From: a virus
Length of the DNA: 64,000 nucleotides
IMG/VR virus record: IMGVR_UViG_3300032287_003559
Coordinates: 62,001 to 126,000 of that record
Direction: 5' to 3' (one strand)
Shown here piece by piece: positions 31,530-48,312 of this stretch (its first letter is position 1; each line of letters begins with the position of its first letter). The notes under the pieces were generated by a model, which had not been told where the DNA came from, searched no databases, and saw nothing but the letters and a program-made list of their open reading frames with translations. Both the position numbers and the translations under genes were made by a program.

Positions 31530-31535
31530 GAATAC

Positions 31536-31564
31536 TTGCAAAAAAATATTTCCTTTAGTATAAT
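31536..31564 (+). promoter_or_regulatory. Sigma70-type promoter for gmd
   Basis: TTGCAA 31536-31541, 17-base spacer, TATAAT 31559-31564; ATG 31585 follows. Confidence 0.8.
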
Positions 31565-31584
31565 AAAATAAACGATATTGCCAT

Positions 31585-32586
31585 ATGAAGGTTGCTTTAA
31601 TTACTGGAATAACAGGGCAAGATGGATCTTATCTTGCCGAACTCCTTTTGGAAAAAGGATATGAAGTTCATGGTATCATTCGCCGTGCATCTCAGATCAA
31701 TACTCAAAGAATTGATCATTTGTATCAAAATATTAAATTACATTACGGAGATTTAACAGATTCGACTAATATAGTTCGAGTTATTCAAAAAGTTCAACCA
31801 GATGAAATTTATAACCTTGGTGCTCAGAGTCATGTCAAAGTATCCTTTGAGATGCCTGAATACACTGCTGATGTGGATGCTTTGGGAACTCTTCGTATTC
31901 TTGAAGCAGTTCGTCTTTTGGGCATGGAAAAGAATGTTCGTATTTATCAAGCTTCTACAAGCGAACTTTACGGTCTTGTTCAAGAAATTCCTCAAAGGGA
32001 AACTACTCCTTTTTATCCTCGCTCTCCCTATGGTGTAGCAAAGATTTATGGTTATTGGATTACAAAAAATTATCGCGAATCCTATGGAATGTTTGCTTGT
32101 ACGGGCATTCTCTTTAATCACGAGTCTCCTCGTCGTGGTGAGACCTTTGTTACACGTAAAATTGTTAAAGGATTGAAAGCAATATCCGAAGGAAAACAAG
32201 ATATATTATGTCTTGGTAACTTGAATGCAAAACGTGATTGGGGACATGCTAGAGATTTTGTTGAAGCAATGTGGATGATGCTCCAACAAGATGAACCGGA
32301 TGATTATGTGGTTGCTACAGGTAAGCAATACTCGGTGCGTGAGTTTGTTGAAACAGCAGCACCATATTTTGGAATGGAAATTGTATGGGAAGGTAAGGGA
32401 CTTAATGAAGTTGGAATTGACAAACTTACTGGAAAACCCGTTATCAAAGTTGATCCTAAATATTTTCGACCTGCTGAAGTAGAGACCTTATTAGGTGATG
32501 CCACAAAGGCAAAACAAAAATTAGGGTGGGAACCTAAAATTTCATTTGAACAATTAGTTGAGGATATGTGCATCAATGACAATTGA
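31585..32586 (+). CDS. gmd: GDP-mannose 4,6-dehydratase
   Basis: 333 residues, full length. Converts GDP-D-mannose to GDP-4-keto-6-deoxymannose, the first step to GDP-fucose. Rossmann motif [14 protein letters not shown] near residue 7, the NADP-specific RRAS segment near 33, catalytic YGVAK (Tyr-x-x-x-Lys) near 148, and the Gmd signature [16 protein letters not shown] near 173. Partner reductase (fcl) is two genes downstream. Confidence 0.97.
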
Positions 32587-33826
32587 TATGTTTCATAAAA
32601 TAGAAAAATGTAGAGTTTGTGGAAATACTCATCTAGAATTAGTCTTAGATTTAGGAAATCAATACGTCTCTGGAATTTTTCCCAAGAAAGTGGACTATGA
32701 GTTGTACAACGGACCACTAAAACTTGTTAAATGTAACGAAATGAATGGTGGATGTGGTCATGTTCAATTAGAACATACCTTCGATCTTCCGACCATGTAC
32801 GGTGAGGAATATGGGTATCGTTCTGGTTTGAATTCAAGTATGGTGAAGCATCTTCAAGAAAAGCATCAAAAGATTGTAAATTTTTATGATTTGAAAGAAA
32901 ACGATATTGTAATTGATATTGCTGGAAACGATGGAACATTTCTTGGATTCTTTTCAGAAAAACTGAGACTTGTTAGCATTGATCCGACTTCTAAAAAGTT
33001 CTCAAAGTATTTCAAAGAACACGTAGATTATATTGCTGATTTCTTTACTGAAGAAACTTTTAGAAAACATTTTGGTAATCAAAAAGCAAAATTAGTAACA
33101 TCTTTTTCGATGTTCTATGATTTGGAAGATCCGTGCCAGTTTGCTAAAGAAGTAAATTCCGTTCTAGATCCTGAAGAAGGTATTTGGGTTTTGGAACAAA
33201 GTTATATGCCTGAAATGCTTCGCGTCAATTCTTTTGATACTGTATGCCATGAGCATCTTTCTTATTATGGAATGAGGCAGATCAAATATATTATGGATAA
33301 AGCAAATCTTAAAATTATTTCTTATGAATTTAATGATGTAAATGGCGGTAGCATTTCTTTGGTGGTTTCTAATAAAGATAGTAAGTATGAAGAATGTACT
33401 GAAATGTTGAGTGAAATTATTAAAGAAGAACTTGATCTTAAATTAGATACTATTGAACCATGGCAAAAATTCCAACTAAGAATTGAAGAATGTAAAAAAA
33501 GTTTCTGGAAAATTATTGAAGAGTGTAAAAAAGAAGGATTAAAAATCTGTGCTCTTGGAGCTAGTACCAAAGGAAATATAACACTTCAAACTTGGAAAAT
33601 TACTTCAGATGATATTGAAGTAATTGGTGATGTAAACCCAGATAAAGACGGATCATTTACTCCTGGAACTTGGATTCCAATTAAAAGCGAGGATGCTGTT
33701 ATAGACACTTATGATGTGTTTGTTATTCTCCCCTGGCACTTTAGAGAATTTTTTATGACTAGTGAAAAATTTAAAGGTAAGAAATTACTCTTCCCACTTC
33801 CAACTGCTGAAATTGTAACTGTTTAA
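32576..33826 (+). CDS. Sugar C-methyltransferase (zinc-binding N-domain, SAM domain, C-terminal sugar domain)
   Basis: About 416 residues from ATG 32576, which overlaps the gmd stop; ATG 32588 is an alternative, while upstream TTG 32558 is unlikely. An N-terminal zinc-type [16 protein letters not shown] domain near residue 11 is followed by a Rossmann SAM fold ([15 protein letters not shown] near residue 109) and a C-terminal domain with [14 protein letters not shown] near 326. This three-part layout is that of nucleotide-sugar C-methyltransferases. Acts in the same pathway as gmd or rfbH products; the target carbon is not deducible. Confidence 0.9.
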
Positions 33827-33828
33827 TT

Positions 33829-34764
33829 ATGGAAAAAACTTCTAAAATTTTTGTCGCAGGACATAGAGGACTTGTTGGTTCTGCTATTTTAAGAACTCTC
33901 ATTGAAAGGGGTTATAGTAATATAATAACTGCAACCAGACAAGAAGTTGATTTACTTAATCAATCTCAAGTTGAGAAATTCTTTGAAAGAGAAAGACCAG
34001 AATATGTATTTGATGCAGCTGCCCGTGTCGGTGGTATTCATGCTAACAATCAATATTCTGCAGAATTTGTTTATGAGAATATCCAAATCCAAACCAATCT
34101 AATTCATTATGCTTGGAAATACGGAGTTAAAAAGTTTCTCTTTATTGGATCAGTTTGCATCTATCCTAAGTATGCTGAAGTTCCAGTAAAAGAAGAATCT
34201 CTTATGACTGGTTATCTGGAACCAACAAATGATGCATATGCTGTTGCTAAAATTTCTGGTATCAAAATGCTTCAAGCATACCATAAACAATATGGATTTA
34301 AAAGCGTATCTTTGATGCCTTCTAACATTTATGGTCCTGGTGATAATTTTCATCCAGAAAATGGACATGTTATTCCTTCAATGATTACCAAATTTAACAA
34401 CTCCGATGGAAAGAAAGTTGTTTTTTGGGGAGATGGAACTCCTATGAGAGAATTTCTTTATTCTGATGACCTCGCAGATGCTTGCCTATTCGCGATGGAT
34501 CACTTTGAAAACTCCGAATTGGTGAATGTTGGATCTGGATATAATGTCAGTATTAAAGAACTTGCACAAACAGTTGCTGGAGTTGTTGGATATAATGGAG
34601 AAATTGGTTGGGACACTTCACGTCCAAATGGAACTCCAAATCGTCCATTAGATTATTCTAAGATGACTGAACTTGGTTGGAATCCAAAACATAGTTTGCG
34701 TTCTGGTCTTGTAAAAACTTATAAATGGTTTAGTGAAGTAACCAATTATGATTCTTGCAAATAA
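33829..34764 (+). CDS. fcl: GDP-L-fucose synthase
   Basis: 311 residues. Epimerises and reduces the Gmd product to GDP-L-fucose with NADPH. AGHRGLVGSAILR near residue 11, the SVCIYPKYAEVPVKEESL segment near 107, catalytic AYAVAKISG (Tyr-x-x-x-Lys) near 136, and LMPSNIYGPGDNFHPENGHV near 163 are all as expected. With gmd this completes GDP-fucose synthesis inside the phage. Confidence 0.96.
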   Translation: MEKTSKIFVAGHRGLVGSAILRTLIERGYSNIITATRQEVDLLNQSQVEKFFERERPEYVFDAAARVGGIHANNQYSAEFVYENIQIQTNLIHYAWKYGVKKFLFIGSVCIYPKYAEVPVKEESLMTGYLEPTNDAYAVAKISGIKMLQAYHKQYGFKSVSLMPSNIYGPGDNFHPENGHVIPSMITKFNNSDGKKVVFWGDGTPMREFLYSDDLADACLFAMDHFENSELVNVGSGYNVSIKELAQTVAGVVGYNGEIGWDTSRPNGTPNRPLDYSKMTELGWNPKHSLRSGLVKTYKWFSEVTNYDSCK

Positions 34765-34787
34765 ATAACCCAAATAATTTTCATAAC

Positions 34788-35468
34788 ATGTATAATAGAC
34801 TTTTAACCGAAGATGATGTTTCGGAATTTTTTGAAATAATAAAGAAGGAAAAGTATCCAGAAAAAGGATTTCAACATAAAGATTTGTGGAACATTCCTGG
34901 TGGATTTGTTAAATGGATTTCAGTTTTAGAAGAGTTTAAGACTATTGGTAAAAATAATTTAAAAGTTATCGACCTAGGATCTTCTACAGGAGTTGTACCT
35001 CATATCATTGCAAGCTGGGGAAATGATGTAACTGGAATTGATATTGAATTGTCCGATCATTGGTGCCCTAAAAATTTAATTAGAATGGTTATCGGGGATG
35101 CTTTACTTGAAATGAAAGAAATTGAAGATGAAAGCATTGATGTGGTTACTGATCTATGTGCAGTTCATGAGTTTAATACAAGTGATAATGGTAAAGTTAA
35201 GAATGTTGGACTAAAAGAAGTCTCAGAACAAATTTACCGAATATTAAAACCAGGTGGAAAATTTCTTAGTTCAACTGATGTTTCTCTTGTTTATCCTGCA
35301 GCACAGCCTGGGGGATTTATTCCTCCAGAAGATATAATTAAAATCGTAGAATCTTCTGGGTTAAAACTAACTAGTCCATACAAAAAAGAATACGAGCAAT
35401 CTGAATATAATCCAATCTATCAACCCGCAGTTGGATTGCATATTGCTACTTTTTCTTTTGAAAAATAA
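34788..35468 (+). CDS. SAM-dependent methyltransferase
   Basis: 226 residues from ATG 34788; a TTG at 34755 in the same frame overlaps fcl and lacks support. Motif I is KVIDLGSSTGVVPHI near residue 63 with acidic motif II VTGIDIELSD, and a late IYRILKPGGKFLSS strand. A class I methyltransferase in the glycan operon; substrate could be a sugar hydroxyl or amine. An AAATAAATA late-promoter-like element lies in the short gap before it. Confidence 0.85.
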   Translation: MYNRLLTEDDVSEFFEIIKKEKYPEKGFQHKDLWNIPGGFVKWISVLEEFKTIGKNNLKVIDLGSSTGVVPHIIASWGNDVTGIDIELSDHWCPKNLIRMVIGDALLEMKEIEDESIDVVTDLCAVHEFNTSDNGKVKNVGLKEVSEQIYRILKPGGKFLSSTDVSLVYPAAQPGGFIPPEDIIKIVESSGLKLTSPYKKEYEQSEYNPIYQPAVGLHIATFSFEK

Positions 35469-35492
35469 GTTAAATTTAAAAATTATTAAAAC

Positions 35493-36428
35493 ATGTACAA
35501 AGGAAAAAAACTAATTGCTTGCTCTCCTGTAGGAAGAAAATCTTCCATGAAGTGCCTATTCAAGCATATTTTGAATAATCGACATATTCTAGATGAATTT
35601 CATTTATGGGTTAACACTGTAAATGAAGAAGATTTGGAATATATTAATAATTTTTCAAAACAATATCCAGACTTTGTTCATTTGAAATATGGATGTGATG
35701 AATTGGACCCAGAACAAATGGGCAAATCTCATAATGTAAAAAGATTTTATAATTACTGCGTAGAACCAGATACGTTTTATTTTAAAATAGATGACGATGT
35801 TATTTTTATTGAGGATGGAACTTTTGAAAAACTATCTCAATATAAATTAGATAATCCAAGCACTTTCCTTACATTTCCTACCATAATCAATAATCCATGG
35901 TGTACTCATTTTCTTAGAGTATCTGGAATCATTGATATTCAAGAATGTCCAGTATGCACTTATACATGGAACTCTGATTTTGAAAAATGCAAAGAATTGA
36001 TTAAATCATCTCCATCTGTAATGAGTGATAATCTATATGAACCTAAACTAGAAGATTTTATTCCTGAAGATAGAGTTATAAGTAGGTTATATTGTTTTGA
36101 TCCGCATATTGCATACAATCTTCTAAATGAGTTTCACAAAAAAATCGTAGAAAATAATCTGTCTGATTTAGATTTTGAAAATATTGTTTTGGAAAATTAC
36201 GAAACTGTATGCATAAATTTTGTAATGTGGGCTGGAGAAGATTTTGCAAAGTTTGATGGTGATGTTAAATCTGTTGGAGATGAACCTTGGTTAGCAACTT
36301 TCTATCCATGCAAATTTGATTTAAAAAATGCAATAGTTGGAAATACTAGAGTCGCTCACTATGCGTTTTGGCCACAAAGACCTCACTTAAATACTACTGA
36401 TATTTTAGAAAAGTATGAAACATTATGA
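35493..36428 (+). CDS. Putative glycosyltransferase (GT-A type)
   Basis: 311 residues, not matched to a numbered GT family. The opening KLIACSPVGRKSSMK and the metal-binding FKIDDDVIFIEDG near residue 95 (the DxD of GT-A enzymes) are visible. The C-terminal half is aromatic and acidic (VMWAGEDFAKFDGD). It overlaps glf by 14 bases. Donor and acceptor unknown. Confidence 0.72.
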   Translation: MYKGKKLIACSPVGRKSSMKCLFKHILNNRHILDEFHLWVNTVNEEDLEYINNFSKQYPDFVHLKYGCDELDPEQMGKSHNVKRFYNYCVEPDTFYFKIDDDVIFIEDGTFEKLSQYKLDNPSTFLTFPTIINNPWCTHFLRVSGIIDIQECPVCTYTWNSDFEKCKELIKSSPSVMSDNLYEPKLEDFIPEDRVISRLYCFDPHIAYNLLNEFHKKIVENNLSDLDFENIVLENYETVCINFVMWAGEDFAKFDGDVKSVGDEPWLATFYPCKFDLKNAIVGNTRVAHYAFWPQRPHLNTTDILEKYETL

Positions 36429-37518
36429 TTATCTAATCATTGGATGTGGATTATTTGGAGCAACATTTGCAAGACTTGCTACTGATAATGGTAAGTCTTG
36501 CTTAATAATTGATAAAAGAAAACATATTGGTGGAAATTGTTATACTGAAAATGTAGAAGGTATTAATGTTCATACGTATGGAGCGCATATTTTTCATACA
36601 AGTAATAAAACTGTTTGGCAATTTGTGAATAGATTTTCTGAATTTAATAATTATATCAATTCACCAAAAGCTGTATCTAATAATGGGAAGTTATATTCTC
36701 TTCCCTTTAATATGAATACTTTTTATGAATTATGGGGAACTAGATCGCCTGATCATGCTAAATCGATTATCGAAAGTCAAAAATTTAAAGGTACTCCAAC
36801 TAATCTGGAAGAGCAGGCATTATCTTTAGTTGGAAAGGATGTTTATGAAACTTTAATTAAAGACTACACTGAGAAGCAATGGGGAAGACCTGCTAAGGAA
36901 CTTCCCACCTTTATTATTAAAAGACTTCCATTAAGATTTACTTTCGATAATAATTATTTCAATGATAAGTATCAAGGTATACCGATTGGCGGTTATACTA
37001 AGATGTTTGAAAAAATGATTGATGGTATTGAAGTTAAGTTGGAATCTGATTATTTTTCTGATAAAGATTATTTTGATTCATTAGCAAGCACTGTAGTTTA
37101 TACTGGTTGTATTGATGAATTCTTTGATTATGAGTATGGAGAACTTGAATATAGATCTTTAAAATTCGTTCAGGAAATCATGGATACTGACAATTATCAG
37201 GGAAATGCAGTTATTAATTACTGTGAAAAATATCCTAAACAAACTAGAACAATAGAACATAAACATTTTGAAAGATCTAACACCAATAAGACAGTAGTTA
37301 CCTTTGAGTATCCTGAAACATATTCAAAAGAAATGATTCCATATTATCCAGTCAACGATGAAACAAATCAAAAAGTTTACAAAAAATATCAAGAAAAATC
37401 AAAAATGTTGACTAATGTTATATTTGGCGGTAGACTAACCGAATATAAGTACATGGATATGCATGTTGTAATTGAATCTGCAATGAACAAATTTAAAACA
37501 CATAACGGAGTAGTATGA
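36415..37518 (+). CDS. glf: UDP-galactopyranose mutase
   Basis: 367 residues, full length. A flavoenzyme that converts UDP-galactopyranose to UDP-galactofuranose. The FAD-binding DYLIIGCGLFGATFAR near residue 4, DKRKHIGGN near 38, and the conserved active-site region around RLPLRFTFDNNYFNDKYQGIPIGGYTKMFEKM (residues about 170-200, outlined) with the Arg/Tyr substrate contacts are present. Galactofuranose is common in bacterial surface glycans. Confidence 0.95.
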   Translation: MKHYDYLIIGCGLFGATFARLATDNGKSCLIIDKRKHIGGNCYTENVEGINVHTYGAHIFHTSNKTVWQFVNRFSEFNNYINSPKAVSNNGKLYSLPFNMNTFYELWGTRSPDHAKSIIESQKFKGTPTNLEEQALSLVGKDVYETLIKDYTEKQWGRPAKELPTFIIKRLPLRFTFDNNYFNDKYQGIPIGGYTKMFEKMIDGIEVKLESDYFSDKDYFDSLASTVVYTGCIDEFFDYEYGELEYRSLKFVQEIMDTDNYQGNAVINYCEKYPKQTRTIEHKHFERSNTNKTVVTFEYPETYSKEMIPYYPVNDETNQKVYKKYQEKSKMLTNVIFGGRLTEYKYMDMHVVIESAMNKFKTHNGVV

Positions 37519-38255
37519 GAATAGCTTTATGTTTATCTGGGCAACCAAGATTTGTCACTGAGTGTGCCCCATACATTTTACAAAATGTTTGTGATGGATA
37601 TGATGTTGATGTTTTTGCACATACTTGGTTTGATGAAGATCTTTTGAATAGACCATATAAAGTTGAAAATAATTGGCCATCGCAAAGAATATCTCCGGAC
37701 GCAGTTAAACAGATAGAGGAGATATATAAACCGATTTCACATAAAGTGGAATCTAGTATGAACTTTAAAGATCCAAATATTGATTATTCTATCTCTTGGC
37801 CAAGATATTGTGGATGGGGAGAACAAACTGAAGAATTTTATAGATTTGTGATTAGTAATCAAATTTCATATTTTTACAGTTTGAATCAGGTTAATATGCT
37901 AAAAAAACACTATGAGTATAAAAATGGATTTAAATATGATTGGGTAGTTAAGTGTAGAACGGATTCTATTGTACAAACCAAAATCGAATTTGAAAAATAT
38001 GATCCAAATGTAATTAACTATACTGGAATTAATAATCAACCAGATGGAATGATTTGTGATTGGTTTGATTTTGGTGGATCAAAAGTTATGGATGTATTCA
38101 TGAGTGCTTTTTCTGTATATGATTTTCCACTCAAAAAATGTATTGATGAGAACAATGGTGCATTTTGTCCAGAATTAATTCATCGAAAAATGATTGATTT
38201 TTTTGGTATAGATAAACAGGCACATCCAATCTACATTTCTTTACCTAGATTCTAA
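37515..38255 (+). CDS. Putative glycosyltransferase-like protein (LCLSGQPR family)
   Basis: 246 residues. Starts RIALCLSGQPR and later has FKYDWVVKCRTDSIVQTKIEFEKYD (outlined), an Arg-Thr-Asp acidic motif in place of a DxD. A paralogue at 43385 shares the opening (FCFAGQPR) and the KYDCVIRCRFDYL block. Both probably act in glycan assembly. Exact activity is not known to me. Confidence 0.7.
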   Translation: MRIALCLSGQPRFVTECAPYILQNVCDGYDVDVFAHTWFDEDLLNRPYKVENNWPSQRISPDAVKQIEEIYKPISHKVESSMNFKDPNIDYSISWPRYCGWGEQTEEFYRFVISNQISYFYSLNQVNMLKKHYEYKNGFKYDWVVKCRTDSIVQTKIEFEKYDPNVINYTGINNQPDGMICDWFDFGGSKVMDVFMSAFSVYDFPLKKCIDENNGAFCPELIHRKMIDFFGIDKQAHPIYISLPRF

Positions 38256-38263
38256 TATTAAAT

Positions 38264-38977
38264 ATGAATATTCTTATACCAATGGCTGGTGAGGGAACAA
38301 GATTTCCTAGAGACACCTATAAAATCCCAAAGCCATTAATTGAAATAAATGGAGTTCCAATGATTCAAAGAGCAATAGAATCTTTGGGATTAACTGGAAC
38401 ATACCATTTTGTGATTAGAAAGGATAGTTATTATGATCAGGTATGTACGCTTTTACATTCAATCTTTCCGAATGTAAAAATTATCAGCGTAGAACAAACA
38501 ACAGAAGGTCCAGCATCAAGTTGTCTTTTGTTTAAAGATTTTATCAATAATGAAGAAGAGTTGGTCATTGCTAACTGTGATCAGATTATGTGGTGGGATG
38601 CAGATTTATTTCTTACCACTGCTAGGTATTATAAGTATGATGGTTTAGTAGTAACCTATAGTACAAATACCACAAAAAACAGTTACGCAAGAATTGATAA
38701 AAGTGGATTTGTGCAAGAAATTAAAGAAAAAGAAGTTATAAGTGATATTTCACTGAATGGAATTCATTATTGGAGAAAGGGTAAATACTTTGTGCAAAGC
38801 ACCGAAGATATGATACAATTTAATGATAGAGCACCTAATGGCGAATTTTATGTTGGACCTTCATATAATCATATGATTAAAAGAGGATTAAAAGTTGGAA
38901 TTCATCATATTCCTAACTGGCAGCATAATCCAGTAGGAGTTCCTGAAGATTTGGATTCATTTATGAAAAAACTATGA
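38264..38977 (+). CDS. Sugar-phosphate nucleotidyltransferase
   Basis: 237 residues. Begins with the classic NTP-transferase motif ILIPMAGEGTRFP near residue 3, followed by KIPKPLIEINGVPMIQR near 19-35; VIANCDQIM near 105 carries the metal-binding Asp. It activates a sugar-phosphate with NTP. First of a run of four genes (to 41016) that overlap or sit within 2 bases of each other. Confidence 0.9.
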   Translation: MNILIPMAGEGTRFPRDTYKIPKPLIEINGVPMIQRAIESLGLTGTYHFVIRKDSYYDQVCTLLHSIFPNVKIISVEQTTEGPASSCLLFKDFINNEEELVIANCDQIMWWDADLFLTTARYYKYDGLVVTYSTNTTKNSYARIDKSGFVQEIKEKEVISDISLNGIHYWRKGKYFVQSTEDMIQFNDRAPNGEFYVGPSYNHMIKRGLKVGIHHIPNWQHNPVGVPEDLDSFMKKL

Positions 38978-39300
38978 ATATAACTAAAATTACAGATTAT
39001 GTGCGTGGATGGTTCATTGGTAACTTTGAACCATCAGTATTGAAAACTCCAGACTTTGAAGTGGGAGTATTGACTCACAAAAAAGATGAGTATTGGGCAC
39101 CCCATTATCATAAAGAAAGTGTAGAATATAATGTTCTTATTTCTGGAAAAATGATAGTTCAGGGAAAGGAGTTAAATAGTGGAGATGTATTTGTATTTGA
39201 GAAAGGGGAAATTGCTGACCCAGTTTTCCTTGAAGATTGTACATTAGTTGTAGTTAAATCCCCATCAATTCCTTCTGATAAATTTGAGGTTGAAAAATGA
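38974..39300 (+). CDS. Cupin-fold protein
   Basis: 108 residues of double-stranded beta-helix type. The metal-binding signature WAPHYHKESVEYNVLISGKM (near residue 42) shows two His, a Glu and spacing typical of a cupin; the partner strand is LNSGDVFVFEKGEIADPVF. It overlaps both neighbours by 4 bases. Cupins next to nucleotidyltransferases are often sugar epimerases or isomerases, but no function is proven here. Confidence 0.83.
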   Translation: MNITKITDYVRGWFIGNFEPSVLKTPDFEVGVLTHKKDEYWAPHYHKESVEYNVLISGKMIVQGKELNSGDVFVFEKGEIADPVFLEDCTLVVVKSPSIPSDKFEVEK

Positions 39301-40535
39301 AATTTTTTAGAGAACTAACTGAATACGAAAAGGATCGTTGTGTTGTTGCAACGTATTACATTGAAACATATGAGGATCTTGGAACCCTAAGAGATGCTGC
39401 CTGGAACCTTGCAATCGGGCAGAGTGTGGGTAATCCAAAGGTTCGTAATCGCTGGGAAAGCGATGAGTTGTTTGAACTTGCATCTTGCGTCATTTATGCC
39501 GATGAAGACGAACTCTCCAAAGTTAATTCTGGAGTCGTTAAAATCGGTTTCCCTAAGGTCAATACTGATTGGGAAGGTGATGGTATCTCCCATCTTCTCT
39601 GCCAACTTATGGGTGGACAATTAGATATTGATGTCTTCAAAGTCTGCCGTCTTCAGAAACTGGAGTTTCCTGCCGATGTGGAAGCACAGTTCCTTGGACC
39701 CAAGAATGGTATTGACGGTATTCGTAAGTTTGTTAATCGTTACGACAAACCACTCTCTGGTGCTATTGTGAAGCCCAAGACTGGTATTTCACCACAGACT
39801 CTTGCAGAGATGGTGAAAGAACTTCTTGATGGTGGTGTAGATTTTATCAAAGAAGATGAGATTCTTTCTAATCCTTCATTCTGCCGTCTTGAAGATCGTG
39901 TAGAACTGATTTCTAATATCGTTAATAATTGTGGAAGGAATGTAATTTATACCTTCTGCATTAACGGTGATCATCATACCATTCTTGATCGTGCTAAATT
40001 TGTTGCTGATAACGGTGGAAACGGTATTCATATTAATTTTTGGAGTGGTCTTGGCGTCTATAATTCAGTTAGAAAGATGGATCTCCCACTCTTTATTCAT
40101 TACCAGAAGAGTGGTGACAAGATTCTTACGGATAAGAGACACGCATTCGGTATAGATTGGGATGTTCTTTGTGACCTTGCTGGTCTCTGTGGTGTAGATA
40201 CTATTCACGCAGGAATGTGGGGTGGTTATCTCAGCGATGATGAGAATGAACTTCGCAAAACTATGGAGACTCTTCACAAGCGTAATGTTCTCCCAGCATT
40301 AAGCTGTGGAATGCATCCAGGGATCGTTAACACCACTGCAGAGAAGTTTGGTACAGATTTCCTTGCTAACTGTGGCGGCGCCATTCACGGGCATCCTGGG
40401 GGCACTCTAGCGGGTGCTCTGGCGATGCGTCAGGCAATTGATAAGAATCCTGGTGCAGAGTTCCGTGCCGCAATTGATAAGTGGGGTTATGAAACTGGTG
40501 GCGGTTCTTTACCTGAGTGGGTATTAGATTTTTGA
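39297..40535 (+). CDS. RuBisCO-like protein (RLP), large-subunit fold
   Basis: 412 residues spanning the whole large-subunit fold. By my alignment with RuBisCO: Lys159 and Lys161 (VKPKTGIS, equal to K175/K177), the metal set Lys185, Asp187 and Glu188 (DFIKEDEI, equal to K201/D203/E204), His268 (equal to H294), His304 in DTIHAG (H327), Ser336 (S379) and Gly360-Gly361 (phosphate site) are kept. Residues equal to E60, N123 (Gln108), R295 (Tyr269) and K334 (Tyr311) are changed, so carboxylation is not expected. It lies within a sugar-activation run (nucleotidyltransferase, cupin, this gene, GDPD-like). Its codon usage is less AT-rich than its neighbours. Confidence 0.93.
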   Translation: MKFFRELTEYEKDRCVVATYYIETYEDLGTLRDAAWNLAIGQSVGNPKVRNRWESDELFELASCVIYADEDELSKVNSGVVKIGFPKVNTDWEGDGISHLLCQLMGGQLDIDVFKVCRLQKLEFPADVEAQFLGPKNGIDGIRKFVNRYDKPLSGAIVKPKTGISPQTLAEMVKELLDGGVDFIKEDEILSNPSFCRLEDRVELISNIVNNCGRNVIYTFCINGDHHTILDRAKFVADNGGNGIHINFWSGLGVYNSVRKMDLPLFIHYQKSGDKILTDKRHAFGIDWDVLCDLAGLCGVDTIHAGMWGGYLSDDENELRKTMETLHKRNVLPALSCGMHPGIVNTTAEKFGTDFLANCGGAIHGHPGGTLAGALAMRQAIDKNPGAEFRAAIDKWGYETGGGSLPEWVLDF

Positions 40536-40536
40536 T

Positions 40537-41016
40537 ATGAAAATTATATCTCATCGTGGGAACCTAACTGGACCAAATCCCCTTAAAGAAAATAGTCCTG
40601 ATTATATCGAAGAAGCGATTGCCGAAGGTTTTGATGTTGAGGTTGATCTAAGAGTCCAAGATGGTCAATGCTATCTTGGACATGATGATCCTCAATACTT
40701 TGTAACTATGGAATGGTTGAGAAAGTATAAAGATATTCTCTGGATTCATTGTAAAAATCTAGAAGCACTTGAAAAAATATCAAGTTCTGTGGTAGAATTT
40801 AACTACTTTTGGCATGATACAGATAGATATACTTTAACGAGTAAGGGGATTGGGTGGGTATTAGTAGGACAATATCCATATTCAAAATCCGTAGTTGTTC
40901 TGCCAGAAAAGATAGATTTATATACCTTTCCTCACGGGATTGAATATATAAAAAGCAGTTATGGAATCTGTACTGATATTCCATTTAAATATAAACAAAA
41001 AATAACGGAGAATTGA
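40537..41016 (+). CDS. Short glycerophosphodiester phosphodiesterase-like protein
   Basis: 159 residues. The N-terminal signature IISHRGN near residue 3 with ENSPDYIEEAI, VEVDLRVQDG near 38 and LGHDDP near 50 match the catalytic His/Glu/Asp set of GDPD enzymes. The usual domain is about 240 residues, so this one lacks the C-terminal barrel half; it may use a shortened barrel or have a different substrate such as a sugar phosphodiester. Directly follows the RLP. Confidence 0.78.
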   Translation: MKIISHRGNLTGPNPLKENSPDYIEEAIAEGFDVEVDLRVQDGQCYLGHDDPQYFVTMEWLRKYKDILWIHCKNLEALEKISSSVVEFNYFWHDTDRYTLTSKGIGWVLVGQYPYSKSVVVLPEKIDLYTFPHGIEYIKSSYGICTDIPFKYKQKITEN

Positions 41017-41019
41017 CTA

Positions 41020-41661
41020 ATGAAATGGGAAACTGATCTGATTAAAGACATTAGAAGTAATACGCCATATGATGATACTGAGGCTGGTATAAATCATTTT
41101 CTTCATATTTGGCCTGGAATTGAGAATGATCCTGGTGTACTGAATCCATATGATGGAACTGAATGTAGTGAGTGTAATAAAGAAGCACTTCTTCAACAAT
41201 TCCTAAAAGTTCGTGATAACTGTAATGCGATTCTTGAAATTGGAATTGGTAGAAATGGAGAGAACTCCTTTGCTCACGTATTCTTTAAGAATAAAAAAGA
41301 AGAAACCAAATATATTGGTATTGATATAGAAGATCGTAGTTGGTTGGTAGATTATGGTGACAATATCTACACTATCCAAGGAAGTAGTTCCAATTATGAT
41401 GAGAATGTTGAGATTTTCAAAACCATGGGAGTAGAAAAATTTGACTTTATTTTCATTGATGGAGATCATAGCGTAAATCAAGTACTACGTGATTGGGAAT
41501 ACTCACGCCTCTTGAATGATGGTGGTATTGTTGGATTCCACGATACAAGTCATCACACTGGACCATATCTATTTGTAAGAAATCTGAACAGAGATATTTG
41601 GGATGTTATTGATAATTCTTGCCCACAAGATTACGGAATTGGATTTGCTACTAAAAAATAA
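41020..41661 (+). CDS. Class I methyltransferase-like protein
   Basis: 213 residues. ILEIGIGRNGENSFA near residue 69 is motif I, YIGIDIEDRSW near 101 motif II, and FDFIFIDGDHSVNQV near 139 with GGIVGFHDTSHH near 164 match the methyltransferase-24/cephalosporin-hydroxylase-like group. The GDH and HDTS motifs suggest metal-dependent O-methylation. Acceptor is probably a sugar in this cluster. Confidence 0.82.
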   Translation: MKWETDLIKDIRSNTPYDDTEAGINHFLHIWPGIENDPGVLNPYDGTECSECNKEALLQQFLKVRDNCNAILEIGIGRNGENSFAHVFFKNKKEETKYIGIDIEDRSWLVDYGDNIYTIQGSSSNYDENVEIFKTMGVEKFDFIFIDGDHSVNQVLRDWEYSRLLNDGGIVGFHDTSHHTGPYLFVRNLNRDIWDVIDNSCPQDYGIGFATKK

Positions 41662-41664
41662 ATT

Positions 41665-42666
41665 ATGAATGACCTTGAAGCACTAAAATCAAAATATAAG
41701 GTTGTTGTTTGGGGATTCAAACCAGTAAACGGAGTATTTCAAAATACTATCGGTTATGTCTGGAATAGTTTTTATAGAGCTTTTCAGACATTGGGGTTCG
41801 AAACCTACTGGTTCCCTAACCAAAAGGTAGAAGGATTTGACTTCTCTAATTGTATTTTCTTAGCAGAGGGATATGATGATTCAGAAATACCTCTAAACAA
41901 AACTTCAATTTATTATGTGCATTGTGCATACAATCCACAAAAGTATGTTAACAATGTTGGTAAATTTGTTGACTTGAGGTATAACCAACTAAAGATGAAT
42001 CATCCAAATTACATGTTTGAGTTGGATAAAAAAAATACCGAAAAATTGGGGAAAAGTTGTTATTATGAACCATCTACTAATCAAGTAGTTCATTTCAAAA
42101 ATGGTAAAGTAGATTATAATATCGATGATTTTGATAAAGTTTATGTTGCTTGGGCAACTAATTTGATGCCTGATGAAATGGATGAAAATGACATCTATTT
42201 GGAAAGAGAAGATAATGTTTACTTTCTTGGAACAGTTTATTATGATGCTCCATATTCAAACGTAAGTGAAATTAGTGAGTTTGCTCAAGAATGTCAAAAA
42301 AATAACATCGGATTCATTGTGAATGAATTTGAAAGAAATCAACTTTCCGAAGAGGATTATATCCAAATTTCAAAAAAATCTCTTTTTGGATTTGATATTA
42401 GAGGTAAATCTAATGTGGAAACTGGATATCTTCCTTGTCGGGTATTTAAAAATATAAGTTATGGTCTTCTAGGTACAACAAATTCTCCTGAAATTTATAA
42501 TGAGCTTGATGGTCACTGTGTCTATAACAGTTCCCCATCTAAACTTTTTTATAGTGCAATGAAAAGAAAAGACGATATTGAATTTATTAAAGAGTGTTTT
42601 AATTATGTAAAACATAATCACACATATATCAATCGAGTTAAGAGTATTTTAAGTATTTTAAAATGA
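41665..42666 (+). CDS. Glycan-cluster protein, possible GT-B glycosyltransferase
   Basis: 333 residues; no signature I can name. The opening KVVVWGFKPVNGVFQNTIGYVW looks like the start of a GT-B N-domain, and the C-terminal NISYGLLGTTNSPEIYNEL (near residue 264) is like a nucleotide-sugar contact loop. Overlaps its right neighbour by 4 bases and lies 3 bases after the left one. Function unknown. Confidence 0.65.
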   Translation: MNDLEALKSKYKVVVWGFKPVNGVFQNTIGYVWNSFYRAFQTLGFETYWFPNQKVEGFDFSNCIFLAEGYDDSEIPLNKTSIYYVHCAYNPQKYVNNVGKFVDLRYNQLKMNHPNYMFELDKKNTEKLGKSCYYEPSTNQVVHFKNGKVDYNIDDFDKVYVAWATNLMPDEMDENDIYLEREDNVYFLGTVYYDAPYSNVSEISEFAQECQKNNIGFIVNEFERNQLSEEDYIQISKKSLFGFDIRGKSNVETGYLPCRVFKNISYGLLGTTNSPEIYNELDGHCVYNSSPSKLFYSAMKRKDDIEFIKECFNYVKHNHTYINRVKSILSILK

Positions 42667-43382
42667 AGTCATCAAATTTTTTAGTTCATCATCAAGCTCA
42701 TAAAAATAAAGTTGCAACAGAGCATGTTATTAGATCATTTAGAGAATATCACCCAGATGATCCATATGTAATTTGGTCTGATTGTGGTGAAGATTATATT
42801 GATATAGCAGAAAAATATAATACAGATTATTATTATTCCGACTTTAATGTAGGATATATCTATTATGATAAAGAATCTGCATATGAATTATATAATAGAA
42901 TAAGAAAATCATGCGAATTATATAAAGATAAAACGCATGTTCTTTGGATGGAAGACGATGTAATAATCAAAGGTGAAATTTATATTCCAGATGAAGTTGA
43001 GTATTATGGAATGCCAAATATTGGAAACACTTGGCCAGAACTTCATGAATATCTTTGTGAGAAATATAAAGTAAATCCCAACTTTAACTTTTGGTCAACT
43101 GCAGGTGGCGTGATCATGCCTACAGATACTTTTGTAAATAAATTTGATATTTTAGAAAAATTTATTGACGAAGATTATGATCATGTTTACAACAATATGT
43201 GCAAAAAAATTGGTGCTGGAGATATACTAAAAATGGTATCCCAAATAATCACTGGAAAAAATTATACCGTTAATCCGCAAATAACTGATGTTAATCATCC
43301 TACAGGTGTTAGCGATGATATAATTTCAATTGTTCATGGATTCAAGGGGCATTATGTAGAACTTCCTCCTAGAGATAATTGA
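42663..43382 (+). CDS. Putative glycosyltransferase (GT-A-like)
   Basis: 239 residues. Contains HVLWMEDDVIIKGEIYIP near residue 95, a DxD-type metal site, and a Tyr/Asp-rich N-domain (EDYIDIAEKYNTDYYYSD). Codon usage is very AT-rich like the adjacent transferases. Donor and acceptor unknown. Confidence 0.7.
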   Translation: MKSSNFLVHHQAHKNKVATEHVIRSFREYHPDDPYVIWSDCGEDYIDIAEKYNTDYYYSDFNVGYIYYDKESAYELYNRIRKSCELYKDKTHVLWMEDDVIIKGEIYIPDEVEYYGMPNIGNTWPELHEYLCEKYKVNPNFNFWSTAGGVIMPTDTFVNKFDILEKFIDEDYDHVYNNMCKKIGAGDILKMVSQIITGKNYTVNPQITDVNHPTGVSDDIISIVHGFKGHYVELPPRDN

Positions 43383-43384
43383 TC

Positions 43385-44107
43385 ATGAAAGTAGCATTTT
43401 GTTTTGCTGGACAACCGAGAGATGTAAAAAATACTCTTAATAATATTAAAAAATCTTGGGGAACTCATCAGGAACTAGATTTCTTCTTTCATTCTTGGAT
43501 TCCTGATAGGGAAGGTCCATATAGAATAGACACTCCTTCTGATGTATATACGAAAGATATTAATGATTATATTTTATCTGAACTATCTCCAGTAAAATAT
43601 GAATTTGAAAATCAAATAATTTTTAAAAATTATTATAGAGACTCTATTCATTGGCCAATTCGTAGTTCTAATATTCCAAATCCTTCTCAAAATATCCAAT
43701 CATTTTTTTATTCAATTAAGAGAAGTAATGAACTAAAAAAACAGTATGAGGAAGAAAATAATTTTAAGTATGACTGCGTAATTCGTTGTAGATTTGACTA
43801 TTTGTTTACGAAGATCTATAATATTAGAGATTTTGATTTAAATTATTTGAATGTAAAAAATGATTGCAAGCATACTCCGTATGCAATCAACGATCACATT
43901 GCATTATCAAATAGTGAGAATATGGATTTGTATTCAACAGTATTTGATAATATTCAAGAACACTATAAAAACGGTATTGAATTTAATACAGAAGTTATTC
44001 TTGGATATAATGCTTTTATTAATGGATTAAAATATCACAAAACTTTAGGTGATAATAATGAATCCTATGTTTCAACACAAAAGGAAAGATCTGGAATTTA
44101 TATATGA
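43385..44107 (+). CDS. Putative glycosyltransferase-like protein, paralogue of 37515
   Basis: 240 residues from ATG 43385 (TTG 43379 is upstream in frame). Opening KVAFCFAGQPRDVKN and FKYDCVIRCRFDYL near residue 132 match the gene at 37515, pointing to a duplication within the cluster. The end overlaps the next ATG by 4 bases. Confidence 0.7.
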   Translation: MKVAFCFAGQPRDVKNTLNNIKKSWGTHQELDFFFHSWIPDREGPYRIDTPSDVYTKDINDYILSELSPVKYEFENQIIFKNYYRDSIHWPIRSSNIPNPSQNIQSFFYSIKRSNELKKQYEEENNFKYDCVIRCRFDYLFTKIYNIRDFDLNYLNVKNDCKHTPYAINDHIALSNSENMDLYSTVFDNIQEHYKNGIEFNTEVILGYNAFINGLKYHKTLGDNNESYVSTQKERSGIYI

Positions 44108-45063
44108 ATATTGCATTTATAGGACCTGGTATTATGCCCATTCCCCCGAATGGATGGGGGGCAGTGGAAATGTTGATATGGGATTATGCAACAGTTCTAG
44201 GGAATTTGGGGCATACTGGTGTAATTATCAATACTCCAAATAGGTCTGAAATTATTCAAGAACTTAAAGAAGATGAATTTGATATTGTTCATCTTCATTA
44301 CGATGTTTTTCATGATATTATTCCTGAAATATTGGATACTATTAAAGGTAAATTGATTGTATCTAGTCATTATCCATATATCAATTATCCTGAGATGTGG
44401 GCGAATGATAATTATAGCCCTATAGTAAAAAGTTTTAGTAATAATAAAAATTTTAATATCTTTTCTTCTAGTCAAAAAGATATTAATACCTTTGTTAGTT
44501 ATGGTGCGGATCCTAATAACTGTTGGTTGAGTAGATTGGGTGTTCTTCCAGATTCGTATGCATTTGATGAAAATGCTACTTATGATAGAACACTTTCTTT
44601 TTCACAGATTTGTGATAGAAAGCGCCAATATCTTATCCAAGATTTTGATAATGTTGATTTTATTGGAAGACTGGAATATGGGAAGTTTAACAATAAGGCA
44701 AACTATAAGGGAGAAATGCCCAGAGTAAAATTAAATACGGAAATAACCAAGTATTCTAATTTTACTCTTTTAAGTTCCGTTGAAAATACAACTCCTTTGG
44801 TAGTTAAAGAAGCACTTATTTGTGGATTGGGTGTTGTAGTTTCTGAAGAAGTGTCTGTTGAACTAGACACAAGTTTAGATTTTATTGATGTTATTACAGA
44901 AGATAAGATCGAAGATCTTTCCTATGTTCAAAGTGTTCTGCAAAAAAATAAAGAATACTCTGTAAAAAACAGAAATAAAATTAGAGAGTATGGAATTCAA
45001 ACATTTGGTCTCTCAAATATTTTAGAATTTGAGTATGTTCCCAAAATGCAGTCATTGTTATGA
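44104..45063 (+). CDS. GT4-like glycosyltransferase
   Basis: 319 residues. The opening NIAFIGPGIMPIPPNGWGAVE and ATVLGNLGHTGVIIN resemble GT-B/GT4 N-domains, and SRLGVLPDSYAFDENATYDR with VENTTPLVVKEALICGLGVVVSE (residues about 228-250, outlined) is the GT4 C-domain E-x7-E-like helix. The next gene is a tandem paralogue. Confidence 0.85.
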   Translation: MNIAFIGPGIMPIPPNGWGAVEMLIWDYATVLGNLGHTGVIINTPNRSEIIQELKEDEFDIVHLHYDVFHDIIPEILDTIKGKLIVSSHYPYINYPEMWANDNYSPIVKSFSNNKNFNIFSSSQKDINTFVSYGADPNNCWLSRLGVLPDSYAFDENATYDRTLSFSQICDRKRQYLIQDFDNVDFIGRLEYGKFNNKANYKGEMPRVKLNTEITKYSNFTLLSSVENTTPLVVKEALICGLGVVVSEEVSVELDTSLDFIDVITEDKIEDLSYVQSVLQKNKEYSVKNRNKIREYGIQTFGLSNILEFEYVPKMQSLL

Positions 45064-46013
45064 AAATAAGTATCATCGGTCCAGCTACACAAATTCCCCC
45101 TGTAGGATGGGGAGCAGTTGAAAGTTTAATTTGGGATTATAAGATATCTCTAGAAGAGATGGACCATAAAGTTCAAATTATAAACATTGAAAATCCTAAC
45201 GAAATTATTCAGCGGATTAATCAATTTAGACCAGATTTTGTTCATATCAATTATGATGATTGGATTGTTCTCTATCCATATATTCAATATCCTTGTGCAA
45301 TAACTTCTCACTTCGGATATATTGAAAGACCTGATATGATGGGAGGATACATAAACATTTTCAACTTATTCCAAAATTATAAACCAAATATTTTTTGCTT
45401 GTCCGAAAGCATTAAAAAAGTTTATAAAGTTTTTTCTGGTATCTCTGAAGATAAATTATTTGTTACTCCTAATGGCGTAAATCTTTCTATCTTTAAAAAA
45501 GAAAGAGAACCAAAGTATCCAGATAGAAGCATTTATCTTGCAAAAATAGATTATCGCAAACGCCAACACTTATTTCAATCTATTGAAAGTCTTTGGTATG
45601 CTGGTAATATTGCTGATAGTAGATTTGATATATCCAAAAATTATCTTGGAGAATGGAATAAAACACAACTCCATAATCAGTTGACCGATTATGGTAATCT
45701 GGTATTATTGAGTGATGGTGAAGCGCATTCATTAGTATTGATGGAAGCACTTGCATCTGGTCTTGGAATTGTAATTAGCGAATTTGCAACAGCAAATCTT
45801 GATCTTGATAAAAATTTTATCGATGTTATTCCAGAAAAAAGAATAAATGATCTTGAATATGTTGAAAGTATCATTGTAAAAAACAGGGAATATTCTATTA
45901 CTCATCGTGAAGAAATTATTGAATATTCTCAAAATTTTGGATGGTCAAATATAATAAAAAATTATTATCTACCTAGTGTTCAAAAATTAATTGCAAATTA
46001 TGATAGGATTTAA
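45060..46013 (+). CDS. GT4-like glycosyltransferase, tandem paralogue
   Basis: 317 residues. Same order of motifs as the previous gene: KISIIGPATQIPPVGWGAVE, VTPNGVNLSIFKKERE, and GEAHSLVLMEALASGLGIVISE near residue 220. Overlaps it by 4 bases. The pair probably arose by duplication and then diverged in acceptor specificity. Confidence 0.87.
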   Translation: MKISIIGPATQIPPVGWGAVESLIWDYKISLEEMDHKVQIINIENPNEIIQRINQFRPDFVHINYDDWIVLYPYIQYPCAITSHFGYIERPDMMGGYINIFNLFQNYKPNIFCLSESIKKVYKVFSGISEDKLFVTPNGVNLSIFKKEREPKYPDRSIYLAKIDYRKRQHLFQSIESLWYAGNIADSRFDISKNYLGEWNKTQLHNQLTDYGNLVLLSDGEAHSLVLMEALASGLGIVISEFATANLDLDKNFIDVIPEKRINDLEYVESIIVKNREYSITHREEIIEYSQNFGWSNIIKNYYLPSVQKLIANYDRI

Positions 46014-46794
46014 TGCTTTGGGGCAACTTGGTAGACTTGGAAATCAAATGTTCCAGTTTGCTTCGCTTAAGGGAATCGCAAGAAACCGTGGATATGAATA
46101 TTGCTTTCCTCCCACACAAAATAAAAATGAATGGACAGACCATCAATTGTTCAATCCTTTTAAACTTAGTAGAACTAGTCAACTAAATGTTCAGTTTATT
46201 GACGCAAATAGACCTACTATTGCGGAAAGTGGATTTTCATTTGATGAAAAGTTATTTAATGAATGTCCAGATTGGGTTTGTATTCAAGGATTTTTTCAGT
46301 CTGAAAAATATTTTAAACATATTGAAAATGAAATTAGATCTGATTTTGAATTCAAAGATGAAATTCTTAATCCTTGTAAAGAGATGATTTCTCAACTGGA
46401 TTCCTCCCCAATTGCACTTCACATCCGCAGAACAGATTATATTACCAATTCTAATCATACTGTATTGGATTTGGAATATTATCAAAAAGCATTAGATGAG
46501 TTCGATAAAGAAGTTACAGTTCTTGTGTTTTCTGATGATCCTGGTTGGTGTAATCAGCAAGATATTTTCTCATCAGATAGATTTCTTATTGCCGAAGGAA
46601 ATTCTAATTATGTTGATTTGTGTTTGATGTCTCTGTGTTCTGGTCACATTATTGCCAACTCTTCATTTTCTTGGTGGGGTGCTTGGCTAGCAAACAATAA
46701 TAAAGTTGTAGCACCTTCTGGATGGTTTTCTGGGTCTAATAATGAGCACCTAGATATTAAAGATTTGATTCCCGAAACTTGGATGGTGATTTAA
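46000..46794 (+). CDS. Alpha-1,2-fucosyltransferase (GT11)
   Basis: 264 residues from ATG 46000. GT11 signatures: GRLGNQMFQFASLKGIA near residue 10, the HIRRTDY GDP-fucose motif (residues about 144-150), and GHIIANSSFSWWGAWLA near 215, as in FUT1/FUT2-type and bacterial FutC enzymes. It would transfer fucose from GDP-fucose, which gmd and fcl supply, onto a terminal galactose, giving an H-type structure. The stop shares a base with the next start (TAATG). Confidence 0.93.
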   Translation: MIGFNALGQLGRLGNQMFQFASLKGIARNRGYEYCFPPTQNKNEWTDHQLFNPFKLSRTSQLNVQFIDANRPTIAESGFSFDEKLFNECPDWVCIQGFFQSEKYFKHIENEIRSDFEFKDEILNPCKEMISQLDSSPIALHIRRTDYITNSNHTVLDLEYYQKALDEFDKEVTVLVFSDDPGWCNQQDIFSSDRFLIAEGNSNYVDLCLMSLCSGHIIANSSFSWWGAWLANNNKVVAPSGWFSGSNNEHLDIKDLIPETWMVI

Positions 46795-47510
46795 TGAAAA
46801 TTGCGATTTGTTTTATTGGTACTGGAAAGTATTTAAACTTTCTTCCAAAATATTATGAAAATATTCATGAATATTTTCTTCCCAATAGCGAAAAAACTTT
46901 TTTAGTTTTTACGGATGGTGAAGGAGATTTTCCTGAAGATGTTAAAGTATATAAACAAAAACATCTTGAATGGCCTTATATTACCTTAACAAGATTTGGA
47001 ATTATTCAAAAAGCAAAAGAAGAAATTGAAAAGAATGATTGGTTTGTTTTTATTGATGCAGACGCTTTGGTAGTCAATTCAATTACTGAAGAAGAGTTTT
47101 TTGATGATACTAAATCATTTTTTGGAGTCCATCATCCATGTCATTTTCTTCAGATGTCTCCGCATAATGAATATCCTGGAGCATTTGAAACAAATCCACA
47201 GTCTCTTTCTCATATCACTCAAACAGATGATTTGTCTACTTATTATCAAGGATGTTTATGGGGAGGAAAAGTTCCAGATGTTCTTAAGATGATTGAAGAA
47301 CTTGATTGTAGAGTAAACAAAGATCTTGAAAATGATGTGATTGCCGTATGGCATGATGAAAGTCATATCAATAAATTTTTTATTGAACAAAAGGAGTATG
47401 TGAATACTTTAGGTCCAGAGTATGCATACCCAGAAGTATTTTCTAGTTATTGCAAATTCGACCCAAAGATAGTACACTTAGCAAAAAATAACTCAAAATA
47501 TCATGTTTGA
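46794..47510 (+). CDS. GT6-family glycosyltransferase (ABO/alpha-gal type)
   Basis: 238 residues from ATG 46794; a frame extension upstream lies inside the previous gene. GT6 features: KIAICFIGTGKYLNFLPKYY near residue 2, FVFIDADALVV with the DxD-like Asp88-Ala-Asp90, TYYQGCLWGGKVPDV near 157, and VIAVWHDESHINKFF near 184 (the acceptor-binding W/H/E set). Vertebrate members add alpha-1,3 GalNAc or Gal to fucosylated galactose. Placed directly after GT11, which would make such an acceptor. Confidence 0.92.
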   Translation: MKIAICFIGTGKYLNFLPKYYENIHEYFLPNSEKTFLVFTDGEGDFPEDVKVYKQKHLEWPYITLTRFGIIQKAKEEIEKNDWFVFIDADALVVNSITEEEFFDDTKSFFGVHHPCHFLQMSPHNEYPGAFETNPQSLSHITQTDDLSTYYQGCLWGGKVPDVLKMIEELDCRVNKDLENDVIAVWHDESHINKFFIEQKEYVNTLGPEYAYPEVFSSYCKFDPKIVHLAKNNSKYHV

Positions 47511-48312
47511 ATTAAACGATAAAAATAAATCTACCTATAAACTCAAAGGTATTGGTCCGATCTATTATTTAAATCTTGATGGGCAACCAGAAAGAAGGAA
47601 ATATATGGAGGATCAATTTAAATATTGGGAGGTTGAAAATTATACTCGTATTTCTGCATATGATGGACGAGAAGATGATCTAAGTGATATCTTAGTTGGG
47701 CGGTATCCTGAAATGATGACCTCTGGAGAAATTGGATGTATTACTTCTCATCTAAAAGCAATTAAACATTGGTATGAAACATCCGATAGTCCATATGCAG
47801 TCATTATGGAAGATGATTGTAATTTGGATTTAGTCCGATATTGGAATTTTACCTGGGATGATTTTTATGCACATATCCCATATGATTGGGATATTGTACA
47901 AATTGCTATTATCTGTACTGGAGATCTTCATGTTAAACTTCATAAAAGATTTGTAAATGATTTCTCTACAGCTTGTTATCTGATTACTAGACATCATGCA
48001 GAAAAACTTATTAAGTTCCATACTAGAGGAGATAAGTATAAACTTGATAATGGAGTTAAACCACGTCCAGTTGCTGATGACTTGATTTATAATTCCGGAA
48101 ATACTTATTCAATTCCTCTTCTCCTCTATAGAACTGAACTTGGGTCTTCTATCCATCCAGAACACGTTGATGCATTTCATAAAGCTAATTTCAATGCACT
48201 ATCTCAATTCTGGGAACAAAACAGTTCTCAAATCGATATTAAAGATTATATGAACTATGATCCATATCTTGGTCGTATAGTTGAAAATTCTTCTGCCCAA
48301 CAAAATCCTTGA
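47503..48312 (+). CDS. GT25-family glycosyltransferase
   Basis: 269 residues. Signatures: IYYLNLDGQPERRKYME near residue 17, SAYDGRE near 46, SGEIGCITSHLKAI near 67 and the acidic VIMEDDCNL near 98, typical of LPS-type GT25 galactosyltransferases. The last gene of the glycan island, ending just before a promoter. Overlaps GT6 by 8 bases. Confidence 0.9.
   Translation: MFELNDKNKSTYKLKGIGPIYYLNLDGQPERRKYMEDQFKYWEVENYTRISAYDGREDDLSDILVGRYPEMMTSGEIGCITSHLKAIKHWYETSDSPYAVIMEDDCNLDLVRYWNFTWDDFYAHIPYDWDIVQIAIICTGDLHVKLHKRFVNDFSTACYLITRHHAEKLIKFHTRGDKYKLDNGVKPRPVADDLIYNSGNTYSIPLLLYRTELGSSIHPEHVDAFHKANFNALSQFWEQNSSQIDIKDYMNYDPYLGRIVENSSAQQNP

Follow-up and report, generated by a model that had tools for sequence, protein, structure and literature searches.

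RuBisCO-like proteins (RLPs) are a major source of insight into the origin of RuBisCO, and we know of only a few RLP reactions, all of them in salvage or catabolism. RLPs of the MtnW/YkrW, OiaX/NonPhoto and Photo groups combine the RuBisCO fold with a non-carboxylating residue pattern and with K201-D203-E204. The phage-encoded RLP described here shares these features but is linked to nucleotide-sugar genes rather than to salvage or catabolism. With the form III RuBisCOs of Thermococcus and Pyrococcus (8dht, 3a12, 2cwx) it has K175, K177, K201, D203 and E204 in common, whereas it replaces E60, T65, W66, N123, H294, R295 and K334, belongs to a separate clade and lies in another gene context. The GOS study, in its section on RuBisCO, described new groups, with 65 RuBisCO homologues beyond the known clades (PMC1821046), and IV-GOS is named in the corresponding part of a later review (PMC10173188). 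As portrayed in those sections, these homologues resemble the phage RLP in being marine, in falling outside the four forms and in not conserving active-site residues including N123 and H327; unlike the case of the phage RLP, the same sections speak neither of an origin in phages nor of a gene module or a role (PMC1821046, PMC10173188). The phage clade may include or overlap the ocean IV-GOS RLPs. RLPs were removed from two large RuBisCO surveys (PMC12663927, PMC7507306), and this filtering may explain why the phage clade was not followed up. A report of a phage RLP was not found in the literature searched, most subscription journals lying outside its reach. To our knowledge, no RLP family has been described in viruses before, so that this would be the first; if our reading is true, it would give RLPs a biosynthetic role, in surface sugars.

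The window, that is, the whole 64-kb stretch of DNA analyzed, is part of a 175-kb record, which is that of a T4-like cyanophage. The DNA polymerase of this phage is 82-84% identical to those of the Synechococcus phages S-SM2, SynMITS9220M01 and Bellamy (82% for Bellamy), and the record also encodes psbA. Transaldolase, G6PDH and 6PGDH, enzymes that produce or process ribulose 5-phosphate, are encoded by this phage as well, and a gene for an alternative-oxidase-like protein (60888-61388; Pfam AOX 1.9e-12) adjoins them. A first-pass annotation of the sequence had placed the RLP gene within a phage surface-glycan island, and the genes around it, for GDP-mannose dehydratase, DegT aminotransferase and glycosyltransferases, bear this out (Table 1).

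Table 1. Coordinates of the RLP gene, its neighbors and the enclosing island in the 64-kb window.
Feature	Coordinates	Strand	Remarks
Surface-glycan island enclosing the RLP module	29404..48312	+	GDP-mannose dehydratase, DegT aminotransferase, C-methyltransferase, UDP-galactopyranose mutase, glycosyltransferases GT6, GT11, GT25
DUF7796-matching protein, probably a glycosyltransferase	37515..38255	+	Family near RLP in 30/70 loci
Sugar nucleotidyltransferase, 237 aa	38264..38977	+	Pfam NTP_transferase 3.1e-9; overlaps cupin start
Small cupin, 108 aa	38974..39300	+	Conserved H44, H46, E51; 4-nt overlap with RLP start
RuBisCO-like protein (RLP), 412 aa	39297..40535	+	ATG start; K185, D187, E188, K159, K161 kept; Q270, K271, Y311 replace H294, R295, K334
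Glycerophosphodiester-phosphodiesterase (GDPD)-like protein, 159 aa	40537..41016	+	HRG, EN, E-x-D, GH motifs kept
Methyltransferase	41020..41661	+	Frequent, less constant RLP neighbor, 25/70 loci

The RLP open reading frame is intact, with zero internal stops. Compared pairwise with nine phage relatives, it shows a dN/dS of 0.024-0.076; strong purifying selection thus acts on the gene, which is not decayed, and this answers the concern that it might be broken. The full-length large-subunit fold recognized at first pass also holds up. Pfam RuBisCO_large matched the protein over its cut-off (E 8.4e-44), the N-terminal RuBisCO domain gave a weak match below its cut-off (0.0043), and an AlphaFold model built with 18 relatives reached a pLDDT of 90.7 and a pTM of 0.89. 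The solved structures closest to this model by Foldseek were form III RuBisCOs (TM 0.82-0.85, ~27% identity). Catalytic-domain homology and fold thus place the RLP in the RuBisCO large-subunit superfamily.

Active-site residues were compared in an alignment of 31 members of the RLP clade and 28 references. The window protein keeps K175 (K159 in its own numbering), K177 (K161), K201 (K185), D203 (D187), E204 (E188), H327 (H304), S379 (S336), G381 (G338) and G403/G404 (G360/G361); apart from G381, these are the residues that the first-pass annotation had listed as retained. Six of these, namely K175, K177, K201, D203, E204 and S379, are kept in 31/31 clade members, and H327 in 25/31. The four changes that it had named are likewise present, as E60 to G41, N123 to G107, R295 to K271 and K334 to Y311, although that list had overlooked the replacement of H294 by Q270, T65 by N46, W66 by P47 and G380 by C337. 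All 31 members carry G for E60, N for T65, P for W66, G for N123, Q for H294, Y for K334 and C for G380; R295 is replaced by K in 29/31 and retained in 1/31. N123 and K334 serve carboxylation, and H294 aids the enolisation site in the RuBisCOs and RLPs compared. At the latter position, His occurs in all RuBisCO and RLP rows compared outside the phage clade, including MtnW, OiaX and Photo, while K177 is absent from the MtnW, OiaX and Photo groups and retained in the phage clade. Because K177 is kept and H294 is lost, the clade pattern matches neither RuBisCO nor any RLP group compared. The earlier assignment of an RLP-type pattern was therefore right as to the loss of carboxylase residues and the position outside the carboxylating forms, and too simple in that the protein fits no RLP group compared. 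The phosphate-binding glycines and serine are kept as had been stated, but phosphate site 1 has lost T65 and W66.

Phylogenetic placement was obtained from a maximum-likelihood tree of 59 rows, with a midpoint root for drawing only. Its references were PDB chains, plasmid genes and genome matches, some typed with NCBIfam, and labeled sequences of IV-GOS, IV-AMC, IV-DeepYkr, IV-Aful and the R. rubrum methylthioribulose-phosphate isomerase are not among them. PDB chains were taken as the MtnW references because a search of Gammaproteobacteria with the equivalog model yielded zero above cut-off. One gammaproteobacterial locus (L218:1468-3234) encodes an MtnW-like RLP fused to an MtnB-type dehydratase. 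A branch supported at 100/99 sets the RLP family apart from forms I, II, II/III and III as well as from the Photo, MtnW/YkrW (100/99) and OiaX/NonPhoto (100/99) groups. The phylogeny that the first-pass annotation had called for thus gives no placement among carboxylating forms. In the midpoint-rooted tree, the earliest branches are those of members from Legionella, Azospirillum and Elusimicrobia, followed by those from Verrucomicrobia, DPANN archaea and SAR11 and then by a Patescibacteria member; phage sequences, mixed with a few cellular ones, make up the rest of the cluster.

Curated models gave a consistent picture. The best-fitting one, for form III, scored 203.5 against a cut-off of 497.45, followed by PRK09549 (MtnW; 168, cut-off 409), OiaX (155, cut-off 700), TIGR03332 (MtnW; 128, cut-off 513.6) and PRK13475 (107, cut-off 489). 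The RLP is separated from carboxylating RuBisCOs by residues E60, N123, H294, R295 and K334, by the model cut-off and by clade; from MtnW (DK-MTP-1P enolase) and from OiaX/NonPhoto by equivalog cut-offs and clade; and from Photo RLPs (C. tepidum, R. palustris RLP2) by clade and by differences at K177, H294, S379 and G404. Judged from sequence, it is a member of a distinct RuBisCO-like clade outside every RLP group compared, and it counts as form IV in the broad sense of a RuBisCO homologue with substituted carboxylation residues.

This clade is common in aquatic T4-like phages and is not unique to the window phage. One IMG/VR scan returned 224 stretches encoding RLP relatives, 80 of which were kept (57-100% identity), and a scan with a divergent RLP query returned 53 loci. 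When 30 RLP records were tested, most of them probably fragments, 10 also carried the T4-type capsid gene gp23 on the RLP contig, among them contigs of 326 and 518 kb, and 5 carried psbA. No RLP relative was detected by tblastn among 50,697 records of isolate phages, a collection that may omit near relatives of the window phage, and the viral structure library BFVD contained no RuBisCO-fold protein (top TM 0.38). Cellular members are rare in the genomes sampled: 4/22 in Legionella, 2/279 in the archaeal phylum, 1/333 in the Patescibacteria phylum and 3/297 in the SAR11 order, each sample being centered on a known carrier that is included in the count.

Gene neighborhoods were compared in 70 loci that remained after dereplication at 90% RLP identity, and genes within six of the RLP were scored as near. 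The nucleotidyltransferase was near in 64 of the 70, the cupin in 46 and the GDPD-like gene in 43. Nucleotidyltransferase, cupin and RLP recur in this order, frequently with the GDPD-like gene next, while other island genes are reshuffled between phages, and the RLP typically overlaps its upstream gene by a short stretch, mostly 4-17 nt. The closest solved structure to the nucleotidyltransferase is 4evw, a nucleoside-diphosphate-sugar pyrophosphorylase (Foldseek TM 0.86; profile against PDB, 9e-35); the cupin had weak domain matches only (Cupin_2/Cupin_7), and the GDPD-like protein matched solved GDPDs weakly. Seven loci lacked an open reading frame assigned to the window's nucleotidyltransferase; among them, tblastn found a match adjoining the RLP in L144, L148 and L150 and a more distant nucleotidyltransferase in L092, and L139 is a short contig. 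Some marine loci (L050-L057) have no cupin and the order GDPD-like, nucleotidyltransferase, RLP. Module linkage is seen too in deeply branching cellular members. In loci L031-L038, the RLP is 85-86% identical to that of the window, and the adjacent nucleotidyltransferase and cupin are ~37% and ~43% identical; this mismatch suggests that the RLP may move between modules by recombination. The short GDPD-like family (~150 aa) goes together with this nucleotidyltransferase family whether or not the RLP is present.

Isolate cyanophages without the RLP offer a natural swap experiment, in which the RLP, RpiB, DHBP synthase and HAD enzymes are each paired with one nucleotidyltransferase family. The nucleotidyltransferase is unfused in RLP loci (longest 292 aa). 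In S-SKS1, the fusion partner of the same family is DHBP synthase, a riboflavin-pathway enzyme that one would not expect beside a sugar nucleotidyltransferase; in Bellamy, the family is fused to RpiB and followed by the same cupin family; and in S-CAM9 and B23, it is fused to a HAD enzyme. Contig scans found 30 loci with relatives of the RpiB fusion and 11 with relatives of the DHBP synthase fusion, L202 among the latter matching the nucleotidyltransferase part only. In two additional scans, HAD fusions outnumbered the other types, the query of one scan having favored them, and in L353 a gene recognized by eye as HAD, from its motif, occupies the RLP position between the cupin and GDPD-like genes. 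The Bellamy cassette (HAD, PfkB-like kinase, nucleotidyltransferase-RpiB, cupin) resembles the window module, with 35% identity for the nucleotidyltransferase and 45% for the cupin, and the glycan islands of the two phages share their left flank; the cassette has an RpiB domain and separate kinase and HAD genes where the window has the RLP. Such a cassette recalls heptose activation, with its isomerase, kinase, phosphatase and nucleotidyltransferase, by analogy. In cyanophage loci (L157:5838-6992, L162-L191), the RpiB fusion has HAD and PfkB-like kinase genes upstream and the cupin downstream, and in S-SKS1 and its relatives (L156:6001-7425, L192-L201) genes for a kinase-like protein and a small HAD protein lie downstream of the DHBP synthase fusion. 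Because RpiB, DHBP synthase or HAD is fused to the nucleotidyltransferase where the RLP is absent, the RLP would, by comparison, fill the slot of an enzyme that supplies a sugar phosphate.

The RLP is best read as a metal-dependent ketose-phosphate enolase/isomerase feeding NDP-sugar synthesis, a substrate and reaction that we infer. The loss of CO2-fixation residues, together with partners that are a sugar-nucleotide enzyme, a cupin and a phosphodiesterase-like protein, makes it most likely that the RLP prepares an unusual sugar phosphate, destined for surface glycans, rather than capturing carbon. We give an even chance to the proposal that the clade supplies a sugar phosphate to the nucleotide-sugar module, probably by ketose-phosphate enolisation or isomerisation. 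In the putative reaction, K185, carbamylated as in RuBisCO, would hold Mg together with D187 and E188; a proton beside the carbonyl of a ketose phosphate would be removed; and the enediolate, with K159 and K161 nearby, would be reprotonated at a different carbon to yield an isomeric or epimeric sugar phosphate. Enolisation with reprotonation is the most conservative reading because these five residues are kept. The likeliest substrate would be a pentulose phosphate, for example ribulose 5-phosphate, since RpiB and DHBP synthase both act on that compound. The nucleotidyltransferase would then activate the product, and transferases of the island would put the activated sugar onto the surface glycan during infection; the cupin perhaps fixes the isomer, and the GDPD-like protein perhaps acts on a phosphodiester. 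The resemblance of the nucleotidyltransferase to sugar-1-phosphate enzymes means that a 5-phosphate made by the RLP would have to pass through a mutase, or else that the phosphate would have to sit at a different position.

Several observations argue for this role: the linkage of the module across the 70 loci despite shuffled flanks, the fusions in RLP-less phages, the residue pattern, the Bellamy RpiB cassette at the same left flank, and the G6PDH, 6PGDH and transaldolase of the phage itself. The sugar-modifying role proposed at first pass thereby gains comparative support from the module and from the fusions elsewhere, and the genetic partners of the RLP narrow the choice of substrate. Against an enolase/isomerase stands the residue that aids enolisation in the RuBisCOs and RLPs compared, H294, which is Gln in the clade, and some loci have no cupin or no GDPD-like gene; against a pentulose substrate stands the commonest replacement, HAD, which is not pentose-specific. 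That a clade with Gln at H294, Tyr at K334 and an intact K177 carries out a novel sugar-phosphate reaction leading to nucleotide sugars, and that aquatic phages widely carry it in order to remodel host surface glycans, seems to us a matter of balanced probability.

The main rival is skeletal or decarboxylating chemistry, in which the RLP would perform a decarboxylation, a retro-aldol cleavage or a DHBP synthase-type skeletal shift and thereby deliver a short or branched sugar phosphate to the same nucleotidyltransferase. DHBP synthase, the fusion partner in S-SKS1 and related contigs, performs such chemistry, K177 is kept as in true RuBisCOs and unlike in the RLP groups compared, and OiaX RLPs carry a decarboxylase annotation; however, the family lies outside the OiaX clade and has lost the carboxylation residues N123 and K334, and we regard carbon-carbon chemistry as rather unlikely. 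Alternatively, the substrate might be an already activated NDP-sugar or a glycan-linked sugar instead of a free sugar phosphate, in keeping with the module linkage, with the gene order nucleotidyltransferase, cupin, RLP and with the changes at T65 and W66 of phosphate site 1. The glycines and Ser at the phosphate-binding end are kept, however, and the enzymes that replace the RLP, RpiB and DHBP synthase, use free sugar phosphates, which makes an activated substrate distinctly improbable.

Carboxylation and methionine salvage are both unlikely for the phage RLP. Known RLP functions are methionine salvage and sugar-acid catabolism, and the RLP step of R. rubrum is likewise followed by a cupin, so that an enzyme of this kind might sit in the island by chance. 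Yet the family lies outside the MtnW and OiaX clades and far below their cut-offs, and recurrent mtn or four-carbon-acid-kinase neighbors are absent among the clustered neighbor families, whereas OiaX-type plasmid genes do neighbor a four-carbon-acid kinase; we consider such a function very improbable. Genuine CO2 fixation in aid of the infected cyanobacterium's carbon metabolism is hardly credible: the RuBisCO fold and the carbamylation-site lysine are retained, but the family has replaced E60, N123, H294, R295 (save in the one member that retains it) and K334, the clade is separate, and some members come from organisms that are not autotrophs, Legionella and SAR11 for instance.

In Legionella, the RLP and nucleotidyltransferase pair adjoins a divergent LicD-family gene in 4/4 carriers (L203-L206, L151, L152, L154). 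LicD proteins use CDP donors to transfer groups of the phosphocholine type, and by analogy this neighbor hints at a CDP-linked product in Legionella. A search for LicD in the window and in the collected RLP and related loci gave matches in the Legionella loci only, which offers no basis for proposing a LicD transfer step in the phage. The Legionella carriers are cultured species and may provide a laboratory model.
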